IMG/VR virus record: IMGVR_UViG_3300032334_000005
Span: 1 to 21,139 of that record
Strand: one strand, 5' to 3'
DNA: 21,139 nucleotides
Source: a virus
Below the pieces are notes generated by a model, which saw only the letters and a program-made list of their open reading frames with translations, had not been told where the DNA came from and did not search any database. A program made the translations under genes and the position numbers. This document shows positions 2,272-9,540 of the stretch, in pieces; the first letter of the stretch is position 1; every line of letters starts with the position of its first letter.

Positions 2272-3027
2272 TTATTTCCTGTTTAGTTGAGTCATGAACA
2301 TACCACTATATTCGGTATTTCCCAAGTGTGTAATTGGTGTAGATATATCTGTCCAGATCTCAAAGCCACACTCTTCAGCTAATCTACAGAAATAATAATC
2401 TTCTGATAAGAATCTATTAACACCATCTTTTTCTTTGTAAATTCCGACAGGGAAAAAATCATACGCATTATCTGATCCTTCTATTCCTGTTCTTAGATCT
2501 GGTTTGTATTTAAGCTGAGGATTCTTATCTATGATAGTAGTAAAGACATTACGCTTAATCATCATGAAACCTGTGGCACTTTCTTTTACCCTTGCGAATC
2601 CCTGTTTAAATTCTGTGTTAGGATAAAGATTAACATTGAACTGCAAAAGATAATCACGCATTGTTTGTTCATCTATATTATTATTTTCTTTGATACGATC
2701 TAGTAATTGCTGCCAGTAAAATCCTTTTACAGGATAGGTGCATGTAACAACTTCTTTATTAAACTCTATAACTCTTAAAAGATTTTGTAATGTAAATCCA
2801 ATATCAGCATCAATAAATAATAAGTGTGTTCCATTAAATTCTTTATTATCTAGGAACTTAGTTACAAACTTATTTCTAGCACGATTGATTAAGGATTCAG
2901 TAGGTAAGGTTTCTATTCTAAGATTGTGTCCCATATCATTTAAAGGTTTGATGCAATTAAATAATGAATGGAATGTCATGTTACTGACGTTGCCACCATA
3001 GCAAGTTATCGCTATTACGATGTTCAT
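2272..3027 (-). CDS. GT-A-fold glycosyltransferase
   Basis: 251 residues, predicted to transfer a sugar from a nucleotide-sugar donor. The sequence starts with a Rossmann-like strand (MNIVIAITCYGG) and has a metal-binding DXD motif at 73-75 in LLFIDADIGF. A middle substrate loop holds ATGFMMIKRNVF (about 151-162), and the ending SEDYYFCRLAEECG (208-221) supplies a probable catalytic Glu/Asp pair, with His234 in PITHLG as a likely metal ligand. These features in this order are typical of GT-A enzymes, including phage members. The acceptor is unknown: virion fibres, host surface glycans or phage DNA are all possible. The ATG overlaps the stop of the 84-residue gene by 4 bases, and an oxygenase gene lies just upstream, so the three genes are probably made together. 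Confidence 0.8.
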   Translation of the reverse strand: MNIVIAITCYGGNVSNMTFHSLFNCIKPLNDMGHNLRIETLPTESLINRARNKFVTKFLDNKEFNGTHLLFIDADIGFTLQNLLRVIEFNKEVVTCTYPVKGFYWQQLLDRIKENNNIDEQTMRDYLLQFNVNLYPNTEFKQGFARVKESATGFMMIKRNVFTTIIDKNPQLKYKPDLRTGIEGSDNAYDFFPVGIYKEKDGVNRFLSEDYYFCRLAEECGFEIWTDISTPITHLGNTEYSGMFMTQLNRK

Positions 3028-3912: not shown

Positions 3913-4308
3913 CTATACTTCTACTATATCCCAAGTCAATGTTGATTCGTTCCAAGTATATTTATCACTGTCATTTGGTCTTGGAACTGGTGATTCCCAT
4001 TTACAAGTATTTTCGTTTAATATCCAAGAGTTGTAAATTTTAGGTGGTATAAAAGCATCTCTAGTTTCATCATAAGTATATCCTATTCCTGCATGATTTT
4101 TTCTAAAAGGTGTTCCATTATTATTATGAACTCCACCATCAGTATTATAAGATGTTTGTTTCCAAATAGCCCAGCCAGTTAATTTTGTTAAAAAATCAAT
4201 TCCATTAACTTCTTGTTCAATTCCATTAGAATCTTTTAGTACGTTATTATGTACTGATAAAACTTCTATTACTTTTGAATTTAATCCTATTTTTGCGAAT
4301 GATGCCAT
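3913..4308 (-). CDS. Conserved marine-phage protein (MASFAKIGLNSKV type), fibre companion
   Basis: 131 residues, of a type seen widely in cyanophages and other marine tailed phages and usually left hypothetical. The N-terminus MASFAKIGLNSKVIEVLSV and the central GWAIWKQTSYNTDGG and GTPFRKNHAGIGYTYDE blocks are characteristic. The C-terminus has two short Trp repeats (KWESPVPRPNDS and TWNESTLTWDIVEV), similar to the W-x(n)-P-x-P turns of tail-assembly proteins. The start overlaps the stop of the glycine-rich adhesin (TAATG at 4310-4306), so it is the coupled companion of that fibre. A structural or fibre-assembly role is inference from position. In related phages the homologue likewise lies near fibre genes, as far as I recall. 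Confidence 0.75.
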   Translation of the reverse strand: MASFAKIGLNSKVIEVLSVHNNVLKDSNGIEQEVNGIDFLTKLTGWAIWKQTSYNTDGGVHNNNGTPFRKNHAGIGYTYDETRDAFIPPKIYNSWILNENTCKWESPVPRPNDSDKYTWNESTLTWDIVEV

Positions 4309-5837
4309 TATGCTGTATAACTCCCACTACCTGTAAATGTTAAAATTGTATTTGCACCAGACGTTGTAATTGTTGGAGAACCACTTGATGTTCCTGAATA
4401 TCTACCAGTTGGTACACTTAATATAACAACACCTTTGCCACCAGCAGTAGTTCCACCACCACCAATTCCACCTCCACCTCCACCTCCAGTATTAACTGTT
4501 CCTATGGTAGCTTGTCTTGTATTATAAGCACCTCCTGCACCACCACCACCAGTTCCTCCATTTAGTGGAGTATTTTCAGAACCACAACCACCTCCACCAC
4601 CAGCATAAGTTACTGAACTGCCTGTGATTGAAGAAGCTGTACCATTTCCTCCAGAAGCACCTGCACCATTAGCATTAGGTGGATTTAGACCAGAAGAACC
4701 TACTGCACTAGCACCACCACCACCTCCAGCACTTCCTGTATTTTGTGGTCCAGTTCCACCATTACCACCTATACCACCATTATTTCCTTGACTTGGAGAT
4801 GTGCTAGGAGTGTTTCCTGTTCCACCTGTATTAAAAGTTGTTCCAGAACCATTATCAGAACCAGCACCACCACCTGATCCACCATTTTTACCTGCTCTAT
4901 TAGCTACTGTTGGAATTCCCCAAGTTCCACCACCACCTCCTCCAGCAGAAGTAATAGTTGTTAATCCTGAACCAGAAATTGAAGAACTTGAACCATTATT
5001 ACCTGCTGTATCATTATTTCCACTTACTGTGGCACCACCATCTCCAACTGTTACTGTAATTACAGTTGAAGTTGCAACTGCTGAATAAGTACCAGTTCTA
5101 TATCCACCAGCACCTCCTCCACCTGCATAATATCCACTACCACCACTTCCTCCACCACCTATTACTAAATATTCTATATTATTTGGTGGTGTTTCAAATG
5201 TTACATCATCATCAACTGTTGGAATCCAACCTTGTGTTGCACCAGAATAAATTAATGTAACTGATTGACCAGATGTATTGTAAATAGGATTTGGAGAAGT
5301 ATATCCTTGAAAGTTTAAAGAATTTTGATTTATTGTAACTGCGTTTGTTCCCCATGTTCTAAGATAATCAGATAATATAATTGTATCACCATTAGTCGCA
5401 GAAGCAGGTAATGTTACAGTACAAGCATTTGAAGTTGTATTAATCCAATATCCTCTACTAGCGACAGCAGTTAATGTTGAGGCAGTAACAATAGATTGCC
5501 AAGCAATTAATCCTGTTGTACCTGAAGCAAGTTTAGCAGAAGTTATTGTACCATCGCTAGGAGTACCTATTGAAAGAACATCACCTAATACTAAAATAAA
5601 ATCTATTGAGTCAGAAGCAGTTAAAGCATCTGAGAATATTATTGTTGAACCTGATATTGTATAAGCTGAAGTTGGCGATTGAATAACACCATTTAAAGAT
5701 ACAATACAGTTGTTTGCAGTTTGTGGAAAATACGCAACTCCACCATTTAATAAATTGTATGTAGCTGTAGCAGATGTAACTATAGCATCTAGCTTTACAA
5801 AATTTCCTACAACTGGTTGTTTACCTATGTATGCCAT
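4308..5837 (-). CDS. Glycine-rich tail fibre / receptor-binding adhesin
   Basis: 509 residues. The N-terminal domain (MAYIGKQPVVGNFVKLDAI, about 1-120) resembles the attachment modules of marine phage fibres and ends in GTPSDGTITSAKLASG, a relative of the ITDGxIVNADI segment in the two neighbouring fibres. A beta-rich middle (about 120-220) follows. From about 222 (NIEYLVIGGGGSGGSG) to 460 there is a glycine-rich domain with runs of 4-8 Gly and a GAGG/GGGG pattern, closed by GGKGVVILSVPTGRYSG and TSGANTILTFTGSGSYTA, the usual ending of this adhesin type. Polyglycine-sandwich receptor-binding domains are known in phage adhesins; the receptor is unknown. It is coupled through TAATG at both ends. 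The proline-rich frame on the other strand is only a shadow. Confidence 0.85.
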   Translation of the reverse strand: MAYIGKQPVVGNFVKLDAIVTSATATYNLLNGGVAYFPQTANNCIVSLNGVIQSPTSAYTISGSTIIFSDALTASDSIDFILVLGDVLSIGTPSDGTITSAKLASGTTGLIAWQSIVTASTLTAVASRGYWINTTSNACTVTLPASATNGDTIILSDYLRTWGTNAVTINQNSLNFQGYTSPNPIYNTSGQSVTLIYSGATQGWIPTVDDDVTFETPPNNIEYLVIGGGGSGGSGYYAGGGGAGGYRTGTYSAVATSTVITVTVGDGGATVSGNNDTAGNNGSSSSISGSGLTTITSAGGGGGGTWGIPTVANRAGKNGGSGGGAGSDNGSGTTFNTGGTGNTPSTSPSQGNNGGIGGNGGTGPQNTGSAGGGGGASAVGSSGLNPPNANGAGASGGNGTASSITGSSVTYAGGGGGCGSENTPLNGGTGGGGAGGAYNTRQATIGTVNTGGGGGGGIGGGGTTAGGKGVVILSVPTGRYSGTSSGSPTITTSGANTILTFTGSGSYTA

Positions 5838-6019
5838 TATTTATTATTTTCTATTACTTGTAATTCTTTTTGTTTATTTAAAATAGATTGAACATCTATA
5901 GGATTATAACCATTTTCCCAAGTCAAAGTTGATAAATCTTCATTACCAGCAGATCCACTAATGCTAGCTTGAGCATTTGGATCTATTGCTAATAGTGCAT
6001 CTAAAAAACTTATTTTCAT
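5837..6019 (-). CDS. Small fibre-companion protein, XkdW-like (60 aa)
   Basis: 60 residues. It shows MKISFLDALLAIDPNAQASISG, then TLTWENGYNPIDVQSILNKQ, ending in a short helix. The pattern of Asp-Pro-Asn-Ala-Gln, a single Trp flanked by charged residues, then a Pro followed by a terminal helix is common in small proteins beside phage tail-fibre genes (XkdW-like and tail-fibre-assembly-like). Membership is inferred from this layout. ATG at 6019 is two bases after the stop of the upstream fibre, with AGGA in the last codons of that fibre, and its stop overlaps the next fibre start (TAATG). It could be a chaperone or a stub of the fibre. Confidence 0.7.
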   Translation of the reverse strand: MKISFLDALLAIDPNAQASISGSAGNEDLSTLTWENGYNPIDVQSILNKQKELQVIENNK

Positions 6020-6021
6020 AA

Positions 6022-6528
6022 TTATCCTGCTATTTCAAATGCTGTTATTGATGATTTACCTGCGTTTAAATTTATTGTACCACCAGATAAATTCTTAATA
6101 TATATTTGATAAGTTGTAGAAGATGTTGTTGATGGAGAATCTAATACTGATACACTGCATGGCATACCATCATCACTACCTTTAAAATAAGCCATACCAG
6201 CTCCACCACTTCCTAAATCTGTTGCACCTCTATAAATTGTTATAGCACCAGTATGTGTGGCATTTGACATTCCAATACCACAAGTACAAATAACAAATAT
6301 TTTATTTGATGTAGAAGAAGGAGTAATTGTAACAGACAAAGTATTTGATGCTGTTACAAAAGATGAAGATGTCGTTCCTCTTGTTGTTGTGTCAGTAGCA
6401 GTTATAACTTGTAATACTTTACCAGCACCAGTTAGTTTAGTTCCAGCTATAGCCGCACTAGCATTAATATCGGCATTAACTATTGTGCCATCAGTTATTC
6501 CTAGTGATTGTATTTTTGTTAGTGGCAT
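6022..6528 (-). CDS. Short tail fibre / receptor-binding protein
   Basis: 168 residues. The N-terminus MPLTKIQSLGITDGTIVNADINASAAIAG is a compact attachment module also found in the 253-residue fibre (ITDGIIVNADIANS). The remainder is predicted all-beta and Ser/Thr-rich (SVTITPSSTSNKIFVICTCG, then YQIYIKNLSGG) and ends SSITAFEIAG, a typical ending of short marine-phage fibre tips. It is much shorter than the neighbouring fibres, so it probably forms a compact trimeric tip. It is preceded by a micro-ORF whose stop is two bases before this ATG and whose last codons carry AGAGGA. Binding target is unknown. Confidence 0.75.
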   Translation of the reverse strand: MPLTKIQSLGITDGTIVNADINASAAIAGTKLTGAGKVLQVITATDTTTRGTTSSSFVTASNTLSVTITPSSTSNKIFVICTCGIGMSNATHTGAITIYRGATDLGSGGAGMAYFKGSDDGMPCSVSVLDSPSTTSSTTYQIYIKNLSGGTINLNAGKSSITAFEIAG

Positions 6529-6530
6529 GT

Positions 6531-6617
6531 CTAAATTCCTCTTATAGTTTTATTAACAATCTTTACAAGGAATTTAAACATGAAGTCTGAAGACAGCATT
6601 AAATCTAAAGATAGCAT
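6531..6617 (-). CDS. Micro-ORF (28 aa) in front of short fibre
   Basis: ATG at 6617 has AGGGA 7 bases upstream inside the last codons of the 72-residue gene. The frame runs 28 codons to TAG at 6531, and its last codons (Arg-Gly-Ile) hold the AGAGGA used by the next fibre, whose ATG is two bases later. The peptide begins MLSLDLMLSSDFM and continues FKFLVKIVNKTIRGI: hydrophobic with a basic end. A related micro-ORF precedes the 253-residue fibre. It may act mainly as a coupling leader. Expression is inferred; composition alone cannot prove it. Confidence 0.5.
   Translation of the reverse strand: MLSLDLMLSSDFMFKFLVKIVNKTIRGI
6582..6617 (-). repeat. Tandem 18-base unit, third copy at 7656-7673
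   Basis: Two adjacent 18-base copies (6617-6600 and 6599-6582) encode Met-Leu-Ser-Leu-Asp-Leu and Met-Leu-Ser-Ser-Asp-Phe. A third copy at 7673-7656 encodes Met-Leu-Ser-Leu-Asp-Phe. Several of the differences between copies are silent, and each unit begins a micro-ORF or lies inside one. Confidence 0.65.
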
Positions 6618-6619
6618 GA

Positions 6620-6838
6620 TTAATTCCCTATGATTGATTTAATCTCAGCATCATTTAAACCTAATGCTTTAAGTTTGTTTAGTGCTGATTGTTTGTTAGC
6701 AATTTCTTCTGCTTCTTTAGATTCTCTTGCAGACTTTTCTGCATGAGCTTCAATAGCATCTTTTTCTTTTTGAGCTATTTCTTCAGAAGTTAAATCTAAT
6801 TCAAATGTACCTTCTGGTGTTACTATTAGTTTTTTCAT
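6620..6838 (-). CDS. Small fibre-companion protein, coiled coil (72 aa)
   Basis: 72 residues. A short beta-like N-terminus (KKLIVTPEGTFELDLTSEE) is followed by a long charged helix (EIAQKEKDAIEAHAEKSA onward, about 20-52), then a terminal helical hairpin LNKLKALGLNDAEIKSIIG. Small proteins with this TPEG...LT-x-EE, coil and LGL-(T/N)-D-x-EI design are common beside tail-fibre genes of marine phages; the role is not established. Its ATG overlaps the stop of the 253-residue fibre (TAATG at 6840-6836), placing it as that fibre's partner. A trimerising chaperone or virion linker is the likely idea. The end motif also resembles the repeats at the start of the giant ejection protein. Confidence 0.7.
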   Translation of the reverse strand: MKKLIVTPEGTFELDLTSEEIAQKEKDAIEAHAEKSARESKEAEEIANKQSALNKLKALGLNDAEIKSIIGN

Positions 6839-7599
6839 TATTTTAATCCGTATAGTTTAAAATTACCTAATGATATATTTCCTGTTGATGCTAAAAAAGT
6901 AATTCCTGATAAAGCATTAGTATTTCCTGTATAAAGACCACTAAATGTTTCATTATAAATTCTACTAGCAGTATTATCAAAATAAACAGTTTCACCTAAA
7001 ATCATTTTATATGAACCACTACTACTTAATGGATTAAAAATATAAAAAAAACCATTTCTAGTAGCATCATTTGTACTTGATGTAGAATCATGTCCCAATC
7101 TAAAATGAGAAGCACCAATTTGTCCAGTATATGATTGACCACCACTAGTGTCTGTATTATAATAAGAATAATTAGCTATTAAATTGCAACTAGCAGTTAA
7201 ATCTGCATTTGACTGTCTAACTCTTAACCATAAGTAAGCATTAGAAACAGTTTTAATTTGACTAAATGTAATAAAATAATTTTTATAAGTAGATGAAAAA
7301 TATCCATCAAAACTTGCTGAAGCTGTTGAAGAAGTTATATCACTTGTAGCAAGTAAAACAAAATCAGAAGAAACTGAAGTATAAGCAAGTGCAGTAGCAC
7401 CAGAATTTACTGCAAGAACTTGATTGGCAGTTCCTAATGCAGCTAAACCTGTACCACCATTAGCAACAGGTAAAGTACCTGTTACTTTAGTTGTAAGATT
7501 AATTGTAGAGTTTGCTATATCAGCATTAACAATAATACCATCTGTTATATCAGCTGAAGTTAAAGGTACTGCAGAAGGTTTATTTCCTATGAAAGGCAT
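6838..7599 (-). CDS. Tail fibre / receptor-binding protein
   Basis: 253 residues. The attachment segment MPFIGNKPSAVPLTSADITDG and IVNADIANSTINL is followed by TGTLPVANGGTGLAALG, a widespread fibre hinge motif, then LAVNSGATALAYTSVS (about 65-80). The C-terminal 170 residues are all-beta and aromatic-rich (KNYFITFSQIKTVSN, WLRVRQSNAD, SHFRLGHDS, YKMILGETVYFD) and end ISLGNFKLYGLK. This is the shape of a jelly-roll tip domain as seen in marine phage receptor-binding proteins. The start has AGGA eight bases upstream inside a micro-ORF; the stop overlaps its 72-residue companion. The receptor cannot be read. Confidence 0.8.
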   Translation of the reverse strand: MPFIGNKPSAVPLTSADITDGIIVNADIANSTINLTTKVTGTLPVANGGTGLAALGTANQVLAVNSGATALAYTSVSSDFVLLATSDITSSTASASFDGYFSSTYKNYFITFSQIKTVSNAYLWLRVRQSNADLTASCNLIANYSYYNTDTSGGQSYTGQIGASHFRLGHDSTSSTNDATRNGFFYIFNPLSSSGSYKMILGETVYFDNTASRIYNETFSGLYTGNTNALSGITFLASTGNISLGNFKLYGLK

Positions 7600-7601
7600 A
7601 A

Positions 7602-7673
7602 TTACTTTCCTGTTATTATTCTATTGTTAGATTTTATTAACAGTAAATTAATTATGAAATCTAACGATAGCAT
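7602..7673 (-). CDS. Micro-ORF (23 aa) in front of fibre
   Basis: ATG at 7673 has TAGGA about 7 bases upstream, overlapping the stop of the preceding gene. The frame ends TAA at 7602, two bases before the fibre ATG at 7599. The peptide is MLSLDFIINLLLIKSNNRIITGK. Its last codons (Thr-Gly-Lys) contain CAGGA, the ribosome-binding site of the fibre. It shares the MLSLD start, size, hydrophobic-then-basic character and junction geometry with the micro-ORF at 6531-6617. A translational-coupling leader is the simplest reading; a functional peptide is possible. Confidence 0.5.
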   Translation of the reverse strand: MLSLDFIINLLLIKSNNRIITGK

Positions 7674-7682
7674 TTAATTTTC

Positions 7683-8009
7683 CTATGTTGAAATATCGTC
7701 AACTGCACTAACAATTACATCTAAAGATGTAGCTGTGTCAGAAATTACTTTTAGTGCATCACCAGATTCAAGAACGAATTTAGCACCACCATCAATAACT
7801 TGTAATGATGATCCTGCTGGAATTGGTGCATTTTTTACTATGTAATAATCTGCAGCACTTGATGTAATATATACTGAAGCATTAACAGCTGAAGAAGTTG
7901 TGTTAGCTAAAGATATTCCTATGATTGTGTCGTAACTATTTGCAGTTAATAATGTACTAGCAGAAGTTGTTACGTTTCTTGCTATGTATCTTCTAAAATT
8001 TTGTGCCAT
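7683..8009 (-). CDS. Small virion structural protein of the fibre region
   Basis: 108 residues, all-beta and Ser/Ala-rich, soluble. It begins MAQNFRRYIARNVTTSAST and contains YDTIIGISLANTTSS, NASVYITSSAADYYIVKNAP and IPAGSSLQVIDGG, then VLESGDALKVISD and ends DVIVSAVDDIST. This is the pattern of small structural proteins often found beside fibre or neck genes in marine phages and usually left as hypothetical virion proteins. The P-x-G-S-S-L-x-V and E-S-G-D-x-L-x-V turns suggest a compact beta-sandwich. It lies between the T7-type fibre and the fibre cassettes, with AAGGA upstream. A linker or adaptor role is inference. Confidence 0.7.
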   Translation of the reverse strand: MAQNFRRYIARNVTTSASTLLTANSYDTIIGISLANTTSSAVNASVYITSSAADYYIVKNAPIPAGSSLQVIDGGAKFVLESGDALKVISDTATSLDVIVSAVDDIST

Positions 8010-8017
8010 TTAAATCC

Positions 8018-8071
8018 TTATTTAAATTTCTTTATTGAGTTTACGAAATAAAGCCATAGTATATTTTTCAT
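8018..8071 (-). CDS. Possible micro-ORF (17 aa) between fibre and structural protein
   Basis: ATG at 8071-8069 overlaps the stop of the long fibre as TAATG. The frame encodes MKNILWLYFVNSIKKFK and stops at 8018, with AAGGA for the next gene straddling the stop. It is hydrophobic then basic, like the other two micro-ORFs, but lacks the MLSLD start. It may be chance; it is listed because the geometry repeats. Confidence 0.3.
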   Translation of the reverse strand: MKNILWLYFVNSIKKFK

Positions 8072-9540
8072 TATAATGCAATAGAAACAGCTAAAGCAAA
8101 ACCTTTTGTAGCAAAAGTACTTGTATCAGTAGCCTCTACATTTAACCAAGCAGAACCTGTATAATATTTCAATACACTAGATGTTGTGTTAAAGTAAAGA
8201 TCACCAGCATTTAAAGCAGCACCATCATTATCTAATGTTGGATCACTTGCTTTAGCACCTAAATATGTATCATCAAAACTATCTGCTGAAGCTAGAGCAG
8301 CATCTCTTGCAGCATTAGCCGCATTAGCTGCATTACTAGCAGTGTTAGCAAAGTTAGAAGCATTATTTGAAAAATTACTTGAATTGCTAGAATATCCTAA
8401 AGCCGCTGTAGCATTAGATGTTGCATAACCTGCTTGTGTTGTAGCAGTTGCAGCATTTGATGAAGCATATCCAGCTTGCGTAGTTGCAGTTGATGCACTA
8501 GCTGAAGCAGAGTTTGCACTATTAGATGAGTTGTTAGCAAAGTTAGAACTATTACTAGCATGATTAGAACTATTATTAGCAAAGTTAGAACTATTTGAAG
8601 AATGATTTGCAGATGAGTTAGCAGAATTACTAGAATTATTTGCAAAGTTAGAAGCATTACTAGCAGAATTGGCTGCAGCATTAGCATTAGCACTTACACC
8701 AGCTAAAAAAGTTGAAGCAGAGTTAGCACTGTTAGATGCGTTGTTTGCAAAATTAGAACTGTTAGATGCGTGATTAGCAGAATTACTTGCATGGTTAGCA
8801 GATGTGTTTGCAGAATTAGATGAATTTGCAGCAGAGTTAGCTGCGGCATTAGCAGATGTACTAGCTGCAGCTGCATCAACAATTAAATCCCATTTAGCAG
8901 AATCAGCATTAGAACTGATTGGAGTTGTACCAGTAGATGTGTGAGTTGTATTACAAAGATATACGTTATTGTTAGATGAATCTTTTACAATATCTCTAGC
9001 ATTAAAAGTAACACCAGCACTCCATGAACCTCTATTAGTACCAAGCTCTTGTGTAACTGATAATTCACCATTAGTATCAAATGCTAGAATCTTATTAGCA
9101 CGATCTGAAGCACCTACCGAGAATTCGGTACTTGTCATTGTATTTGTTTTAGATAATTTAATTGATCTTGTTAATTCTTCTTGCAATTGTTGAATTGCCA
9201 TAGTTGCTCTGTCTAAACCTTCTTCATGAGATTCAGCAGGGAATGGATCGTTAGCGATATAATCTATTGATTGTGTTTGTGGAATGTTACGTCTTAATAC
9301 AACTGTCTGAGTTGATGTTGGAATATTACCTGATGTGAATATAACTGATCCACCACCTGATGAACCAGCACCTGTTACTGTATAGTGAGTTGTAATAGTT
9401 TTAGTTGTTTCAGTTCCTGTAGATGAACGAATGATTACTTGAATATCTGAATCTTGGAATATCTTAAATGTATAAGCAAACGTTGTAGTTGAACCATCAC
9501 CACTATAACTGTTCTTAACTGTAGTTGAAGATATTGTCAT
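8071..9540 (-). CDS. Tail fibre with T7 gp17-type N-terminal anchor
   Basis: 489 residues. About 1-130 matches the T7 tail-fibre N-terminal domain: SYSGDGSTTTFAYTFKIF, VVLRRNIPQTQSIDYIAND, then SHEEGLDRATMAIQQLQEEL. This binds the tail nozzle/adaptor. Residues about 170-218 look like a carbohydrate-binding module of the chitin-binding (CBM5/12-like) type, with Trp173, Tyr194, Cys196 and Trp217 around NARDIVKDSSNNNVYLC. Residues about 233-410 form a Ser/Asn/Ala heptad shaft. The end (about 420-470) holds FDDTYLGAKASDPT and AGDLYFNTTSS, a frequent marine-phage fibre domain. It has no T7-like tip, so other fibres probably attach to it. ATG has AAGGA five bases upstream. It is the primary anchor of the receptor-binding apparatus. 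Confidence 0.9.
   Translation of the reverse strand: MTISSTTVKNSYSGDGSTTTFAYTFKIFQDSDIQVIIRSSTGTETTKTITTHYTVTGAGSSGGGSVIFTSGNIPTSTQTVVLRRNIPQTQSIDYIANDPFPAESHEEGLDRATMAIQQLQEELTRSIKLSKTNTMTSTEFSVGASDRANKILAFDTNGELSVTQELGTNRGSWSAGVTFNARDIVKDSSNNNVYLCNTTHTSTGTTPISSNADSAKWDLIVDAAAASTSANAAANSAANSSNSANTSANHASNSANHASNSSNFANNASNSANSASTFLAGVSANANAAANSASNASNFANNSSNSANSSANHSSNSSNFANNSSNHASNSSNFANNSSNSANSASASASTATTQAGYASSNAATATTQAGYATSNATAALGYSSNSSNFSNNASNFANTASNAANAANAARDAALASADSFDDTYLGAKASDPTLDNDGAALNAGDLYFNTTSSVLKYYTGSAWLNVEATDTSTFATKGFALAVSIAL
8311..8844 (-). repeat. Heptad-encoding repeats of the fibre shaft
   Basis: The DNA repeats variants of TTAGCAAAGTTAGAACTATT on the plus strand (for example near 8345, 8535, 8577, 8640 and 8742). 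The protein repeats every 7 residues, such as ANNSSNS, ASNSSNF and SANHASN, and contains a longer pair ATTQAGYASSNA / ATTQAGYATSNA. This is a low-complexity coiled-coil or similar trimeric shaft, prone to length change by recombination. Confidence 0.8.

Follow-up and report, generated by a model that had tools for sequence, protein, structure and literature searches.

The window analysed here, a 21,139-base virus record from IMG/VR, carries an adhesin locus on its minus strand in which a T7-like tail fibre (slot 0) is followed by three further fibre genes (slots 1 to 3), each with a small companion gene behind it; the fibres of slots 1 and 2 are in addition preceded by a micro-open reading frame (micro-ORF), which we refer to as the leader. 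All open reading frames (ORFs) and their order are present on this strand as given in the initial annotation. Each slot reads as a four-part mosaic composed of a slot-fixed fibre anchor, a variable fibre body, a companion N-terminal part fixed to the body and a companion C-terminal tag fixed to the slot. The features are as follows (aa, amino acids; HP, hairpin).

8071-9540, minus strand: slot 0, T7-like tail fibre with N-terminal adaptor and repeat shaft; PHROG tail proteins match at residues 1-163.
7683-8009, minus strand: 108-aa protein, conserved left flank of the slots; phrog_26609, a "putative virion structural protein" at the same place in isolates HTVC203P and HTVC035P.
7597-7673, minus strand: slot-1 leader region; leader ORF 7602-7673, 23 codons.
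7639-7656 / 7597-7614 and 7657-7670 / 7621-7634, minus strand: slot-1 leader stems, the first start-occluding and the second competing.
6838-7599, minus strand: slot-1 fibre, with an anchor at about aa 1-33 (MPFIGNKPSAVPLTSADITDGIIVNADIAN) joined through a variable linker to a ...KLYGLK-type body (about aa 70-253).
6620-6838, minus strand: slot-1 companion, whose N-terminal part (MKKLIVTPEGTF...) goes with the KLYG body and whose C-terminal tag NKQSALNKLKALGLNDAEIKSIIGN (6620-6697) goes with slot 1.
6600-6617, minus strand: extra upstream copy of the HP1 segment (ATGCTATCTTTAGATTTA), read directly from the letters; it makes the listed ORF 28 codons long.
6526-6599, minus strand: slot-2 leader; HP1 6592-6594 / 6585-6587, HP2 6567-6582 / 6526-6541, leader ORF 6531-6599, 22 codons.
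6022-6528, minus strand: slot-2 fibre, with a ...FEIAG/MEIKG-type body behind an anchor of aa 1-34 (MPLTKIQSLGITDGTIVNADINASAAIAGTKLTG).
5837-6019, minus strand: slot-2 companion (60 aa), MTIIKAILAINPNAQVS-type in its N-terminal part and, in the alignment with relatives, without C-terminal tag.
4308-5837, minus strand: slot-3 fibre, in which an anchor (aa 1-107, MAYIGKQPVVGNFVKLDAI...) is followed by an assembly-type domain (aa 108-207) and a glycine (Gly)-rich body (Gly_rich_2, E 2.8e-11).
3913-4308, minus strand: slot-3 companion of the MASFAKIG type, linked to the Gly-rich body; phrog_7759, E 5.5e-38.

The structural genes of the window resemble those of HTVC010P-type pelagiphages (tail tubular protein B homologue, 72% to HTVC010P and many other SAR11 phages), and the adhesin region has matches in 38 phage records, mostly Pelagibacter phages. 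The phage is a marine one related to the SAR11-infecting, HTVC010P-type pelagiphages, and the host of the contig is assigned by this kinship only. We collected relatives, referred to by L numbers, with the slot-0 fibre, two fibres and DNA patterns among IMG/VR contigs, which are mostly uncultivated, and added pelagiphage isolate genomes. Slots were assigned by N-terminal patterns and clusters taken as BLAST components; after removal of near-identical sequences there were 58 slot-1, 36 slot-2 and 35 slot-3 fibres, with three N-terminal types (MPFIGN.P or MGYLGYKP in slot 1, MPLTKIQSLGITDG and variants in slot 2, MAYIGKQPVVGNF in slot 3). Between the 108-aa protein and the genes further downstream, the usual slot order is 1-2-3; L241 has the order 1-3-2, and L118 has two type-3 fibres. 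Adhesin types do not avoid repeating within one genome (8 repeats versus 9.7 expected). The slot-2 anchor MPLTKIQSLGITDGTIVNADINASAAIAGTKL has relatives at 53-70% identity in tail genes of Prochlorococcus podoviruses (P-SSP3, P-RSP2, SS120-1 and others), and a search of isolate genomes with this anchor returned matches only in cyanophages and two mycobacteriophages.

We found that each body family is followed by its own companion N-terminal type in any slot: KLYGIK by MKKIINGIEIELT, MEIAG by MTIIKAILAINPNA, FIRLGDT by MDYLQKALxxFN, FxGxKLIGA by MANLSTKIKLYANKEVDF, and Gly-rich bodies by MASFAKIG, which was present on 8/8 of them. This linkage was quantified with a set of 99 non-redundant fibre-companion pairs, from which near-identical ones had been dropped at 95% identity. 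Mutual information between body and companion N-terminal part amounted to 2.91 of a possible 3.02 bits, compared with 1.17±0.07 bits in shuffles that ignore relatedness. For the 72 pairs with recognisable tags, the value for body and slot equalled that of the shuffles (0.32 for both), and the companion C-terminal tag and the slot shared 0.87 bits, with 0.12 in shuffles that likewise ignore relatedness.

The DNA alignments place borders on these parts. A KLYG-type body is found on slot-1, slot-2 and slot-3 anchors. Where the same slot carries different bodies, as in L020 and L284, 75 nucleotides (nt) of the anchor and 72 nt of the companion end are identical and the bodies stand at background level. 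Between slots, L006 slot 1 and L284 slot 2 have 724 nt in common at 91%, a block that opens at fibre aa 30 and closes at companion aa 66, with no match between the anchors and tags beyond it; for L044 slot 2 and L100 slot 3, the common stretch (fibre aa 34 to companion aa 57) measures 611 nt at 86%. Crossover borders lie in or just after the anchor segment ITDGxIVNADIN and in the middle of the companion. The exchange unit accordingly begins at about residue 30-50 of the fibre, crosses the gene boundary and ends at about residue 45-70 of the companion, and because its left border lies in or just behind ITDGxIVNADIN, this segment doubles as the joint. Judged from these alignments, bodies and companion N-terminal parts are demonstrably inherited as one block, which moves within and between slots.

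This pattern of inheritance is what the architecture of Tfa-type chaperones predicts, and for that reason we suggest that the companions work like Tfa. In Mu and in Pam3 (gp25), the N-terminal part of such chaperones is variable and binds the fibre tip, and the C-terminal part is conserved (PMC9608196). By analogy, the N-terminal part of each companion would recognise the tip of its own fibre, so that fibre body and companion N-terminal part must move together; anchor and tag would serve the slot, in docking, in oligomerisation and as the ribosome-binding site (RBS) of the next gene. Fibre and companion genes are separated by -1 to +2 nt in the three window pairs and by a few nt in most pairs. 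In Pfam searches, PF16778 (Phage_tail_APC) was found in 7/36 companions, none of them the window's own, and it forms the C-terminal half of companions with two unrelated N-terminal parts (L241 aa 54-113, L100 aa 37-97); PF09636 (XkdW) forms the N-terminal part of a companion, and the slot-1 window companion gave no significant Pfam match. The AlphaFold2 (AF2) model of the L085 companion, with a predicted local distance difference test (pLDDT) score of 93.5, has a helical C-terminal part and no significant PDB match. In view of an uninformative fold search and the absence of any significant match to a family, we do not class the window companions as Tfa members. As for the fibres, the AF2 model of the slot-1 body is all-beta (pLDDT mostly 85-94); its fold has a match in BFVD at E 2e-17, among viral models only, and a search against the PDB gave nothing significant. 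The slot-2 window companion (5837-6019) is without the C-terminal tag of about 40 residues that is seen in aligned relatives (about 99 aa), and this tag may have been lost as the slot-3 gene became joined to the slot-2 companion.

The leader follows a different rule. It precedes 20/36 slot-2, 2/58 slot-1 and 0/35 slot-3 fibres, where three of the 20 slot-2 leaders entered the sample via a leader-based pattern (17/33 without them); the two slot-1 cases are the window and L286. It remains with the slot-2 anchor when the slot order changes (L241), and it is unlinked to body type (permutation p=0.54). The expectation of the initial annotation that micro-ORF, fibre and companion travel together was thus borne out for fibre and companion and failed for the micro-ORF. 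All slot-2 leader ORFs end 2 nt ahead of the fibre ATG and measure 22 codons in all distinct alleles. A search for the micro-ORF in isolate genomes gave no match, as did Rfam at gathering scores in the window and five relatives. A programmed frameshift joining leader and fibre was considered and rejected, since the upstream fibre frame is open for just 4-8 codons.

In a repeat scan, both window micro-ORFs proved to be hairpins, and the distinct slot-2 leaders fold alike. Unguided RNAalifold on 16 aligned slot-2 leaders predicted HP1 (6-8/13-15) and HP2 (18-33/59-74), with 96.7% of cells paired and double changes at 7 pairs; controls with slid partners reached at most 50.3% and at most one such pair. 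With three divergent members added in an alignment fitted to the model, the values were 96.0% and 13. HP1 occurs as GUC/GAC, AUC/GAU and GCA/UGC, and HP2 varies between CC/GG and UU/AA and has three pair types beside the AUG. The 3' arm of HP2 holds the Shine-Dalgarno (SD) sequence, the leader stop and the fibre AUG. The fibre start has a predicted unpaired probability of 0.08 with the leader versus 0.72 for slot-2 fibres without it, and a stem of at least 14/16 pairs covers 22/22 leader-bearing starts, 0/106 other fibre starts and 9/421 other gene starts. The leader's own start is more open (0.52 unpaired) and an SD-like motif precedes it in 20/27 cases.

A covariance model of the leader matches the slot-1 window leader with 59.2 bits (E 3.8e-10, a rough value from a short calibration) and also finds those of L286 and, in divergent form, L248. 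The L248 leader (L248:7042-7124) precedes a different, MPL-type fibre; its AUG is hidden by a different stem with a sequence unrelated to HP2, and its ORF overlaps the fibre start rather than ending 2 nt ahead. From the predicted structures and their distribution, the micro-ORF, listed as a cassette gene of its own in the initial annotation, is better explained as a structured, dispensable leader RNA of the slot-2 anchor, which appears to have been copied at least once to slot 1.

Because the leader ORF crosses HP2 and stops 2 nt before the fibre AUG, translational coupling in its RNA-unfolding mode (reviewed in PMC12548453) is the most likely way in which fibre translation is governed. HP2 would bury the fibre SD and AUG and keep fibre translation low unless the leader is read; a ribosome reading the leader would melt HP2 and reinitiate 2 nt downstream, so that the fibre is made. 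Simulated clearing of the 5' arm raised accessibility from 0.01 to 0.59. The slot-1 window leader has two near-isoenergetic predicted folds (-15.5 and -15.3 kcal/mol). That these mutually exclusive folds form a regulatory switch, with leaders setting translationally which adhesins are made and in what ratio, is a speculative extension of the model that we hold to be doubtful.

The constant length and spacing of the slot-2 leaders would also be expected if the micro-ORF encoded a short peptide with a function of its own, such as a membrane-active or virion peptide, with the hairpin being incidental. Frame 0 is open throughout, the other frames contain stops, and the ratio of nonsynonymous to synonymous polymorphism (pN/pS) is 0.60. 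However, the part of the peptide that varies, its middle, corresponds to the hairpin loop, HP1 pairing is kept while the residues change from SLD to HLC, compensatory changes occur at seven pairs, and about half of the slot-2 loci have no leader. A column-shuffle test of pN/pS was not significant (46/300), and a conserved peptide was rejected as a candidate on the weakness of pN/pS and column shuffles. We therefore regard the peptide as an unlikely explanation of the leader.

Another use of such a hairpin is timing, as in T4, where soc, e, 25 and 26 are controlled by RBS-sequestering hairpins (PMC2988022). Here, long read-through transcripts would have their fibre silenced by the hairpin, and a shorter, unmasked late mRNA would come from a promoter in the leader. 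The T4 precedent speaks for this scheme, but promoter-like sites in the region number 14 versus 13.2 in shuffles (consensus scan only), no promoter-like motif is evident across leaders, and the group member Skadi is reported to use host RNA polymerase (PMC10504331). We consider it improbable.

Immediately before the full leader, the window (6600-6617), L006 (9800-9835), L104 and L017 carry remnants of another leader 5' end, different in type. In the window, this is the extra copy of its own first 18 nt that lengthens the 28-codon ORF 6531-6617 beyond the family length of 22 codons (6531-6599). The remnants look as if leaders had been replaced or inserted repeatedly at the same place. Together with the patchy occurrence of the leader and its location at the slot junction, they would fit a hairpin that works as DNA, either as a mobile element or as a recombination site promoting slot exchange. 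Yet G-U pairs are tolerated at several positions, as in RNA, the fibre AUG is always part of the stem, and the observed crossovers lie inside fibre anchor and companion and not at the leader. We regard a role as DNA as unlikely.

The initial annotation had interpreted slots 1 and 2 as a duplication, with the trio of micro-ORF, fibre and companion copied together as a way to carry several adhesins. The observations behind it stand. Gene order is identical, and the junctions are nearly so: the leaders end in TAA-TT-ATG and TAG-AC-ATG, the first companion has TAA-TC-ATG, and the others show TAATG overlaps. The segment ITDGxIVNADI is common to both fibres, as ITDGIIVNADI (6838-7599) and ITDGTIVNADI (6022-6528), with 10/11 residues and 26/33 nt identical, the latter being the best non-self match of that 33-mer within the window. 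In addition, over 44 nt at its start, the slot-1 leader is similar to a slot-2 leader, that of L081, at 86%. BLASTP, however, aligned the two window fibres only at residues 11-41 versus 1-34 (E 5e-5, 19/34 identical), and their companions gave zero alignment at E<=100. By sequence comparison, the shared N-terminal segment exceeds chance, yet it is the sole similarity between the two fibres. Because only these N-terminal 34 residues are common, the companions cannot be aligned and the ITDG segment agrees at 26/33 nt, neither unit is a recent copy of the other. The bodies and companions of these two window units are mutually unrelated, and each has its kin in a different slot of other phages: slot 3 of L005 holds relatives of the slot-1 body and companion, and slot-2 body and companion match those of L003 slot 1 (65% over 632 nt). 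The window junction comprising slot-1 tag, second leader and slot-2 anchor matches L003 at 84%. With the leader unlinked to body type as well, duplication of whole cassettes is very improbable. In the relatives, modules have indeed been gained and shuffled at a multi-adhesin locus, as the initial annotation anticipated, but the gene trio is not what moves; the unit is instead the fibre body with the companion N-terminal part, and fibre anchor and companion C-terminal tag are left behind.

Shared descent alone, without exchange, would produce body-companion linkage, and our shuffles do overstate significance with relatives gathered by similarity and filtered only at 95% identity, but it is hardly credible given that several body families recur with their companion part in two or three slots and that DNA blocks of 86-91% identity stop abruptly at anchor and tag borders.

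We thus favour, with good confidence, the reading of the region as a multi-slot mosaic adhesin locus with Tfa-like companions and a leader RNA of the slot-2 anchor that acts by translational coupling. Several points weigh against it. Since the shuffle controls ignore relatedness, mutual information carries less weight than the DNA borders, and the cross-slot DNA blocks are the stronger evidence. The leader alleles are related, and the independent double changes perhaps number six to eight. The leader peptide is under some constraint (pN/pS 0.60, and 0.31 in the first half), part of which is explained by HP1 pairing. In longer context, folding is looser in a few leaders, the fibre start being 0.39-0.54 unpaired in L006, L250, L284 and L286. 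Chaperone function of the companions is argued by analogy: those of slots 1 and 2 in the window have no significant chaperone match, and a companion fold search against the PDB returned nothing significant. Finally, the slot-2 window companion has no tag, so the tag may be dispensable.

Further observations concern slot 3 and the flanks of the locus. Residues 108-207 of the slot-3 fibre match TSP4-N of phage CBA120 (PDB 7RFV, E 2e-8), a tailspike assembly and anchor part, and slot 3 could be a branching hub. In L002 (18-2954) and L004 (10001-13054), a T7-like slot-0 fibre is fused to a Gly-rich slot-3 body followed by a MASFAKIG companion, and slots 1-3 and the 108-aa gene are missing. L003, L008, L044, L081 and L104 carry an HNH/NUMOD3 endonuclease gene exactly between slot-2 companion and slot-3 fibre, at the slot-3 fibre start (for example L081:12504-13172 and L044:11181-12032). 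Some of these endonucleases are fused to the first seven slot-3 anchor codons (MAYIGKQ), and the slot-3 fibre restarts at TTG right after the nuclease stop. The gene has the look of a homing endonuclease located at the border of a module (compare PMC10448857). Group I introns were rejected for these loci, with no Rfam match and the slot-3 frame resuming right behind the stop of the nuclease. Immediately downstream of the slots, the window has a 2-oxoglutarate-Fe(II) oxygenase-like gene (PF13759, 3275-3886) and a phrog_1574 gene (2272-3027), the latter being the conserved right flank of the slots in relatives.

The exchange unit is hereby defined down to its borders, which predicts the fibre and chaperone-like parts that must stay together. 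Likewise, a micro-ORF that annotation ignores or calls a gene becomes a testable RNA control element ahead of an adhesin. In the open-access literature searched, we did not find the slot structure, an exchange unit crossing a gene boundary or the leader RNA.

Known systems resemble the locus in part. As in T4 soc, e, 25 and 26, f1 VII/IX and MS2 coat/lysis, RBS structure is predicted to silence the downstream gene and an upstream ORF reads into it (PMC12548453, PMC2988022); unlike these cases, the leader is a dedicated element of about 22 codons that belongs to an adhesin slot, has a second, very small hairpin and gave no Rfam match at gathering scores. In CBA120, the XD domains of TSP4-N hold other tailspikes (PMC8825819). 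Such branched complexes likewise bring several adhesins onto one virion, and slot-3 aa 108-207 match TSP4-N; here, however, only one region matched, and any docking of slots 1 and 2 on slot 3 would be hypothetical. Like Tfa of phage Mu and Pam3 gp25 (PMC9608196), the companions are encoded by a small gene right after the fibre and have an N-terminal part that varies with the fibre body; in Tfa, this part is specific to the fibre tip and is joined to a conserved helical C-terminal part. They differ in that there are three parallel slots per phage, that the C-terminal parts are slot-specific and not universal, and that the window companions have no significant Tfa or APC match; fibre binding is proposed by analogy.

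Two reports come closest to the exchange itself. In one, the Alteromonas phages A5 and V22 are reported to have a tail fibre and cognate chaperone that are common to distantly related phages (PMC10579305). A fibre and chaperone pair shared between phages is what we find as well, but that account speaks of shared fibre and chaperone genes, whereas the block delimited here has one end within the fibre gene and the other within the chaperone-like gene, and it is exchanged between slots of related genomes as well. For HTVC010P-like phages, metaviromic islands, in the passages of PMC3909814 consulted, hold variable C1q-type receptor-binding protein domains with better conserved N-terminal ends beside a T7-like fibre. 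The phage group and the variable C-termini beside a T7-like fibre are the same here; to that account, our analysis adds the slot anchors, the companion linkage, the exchange borders and the putative leader RNA.

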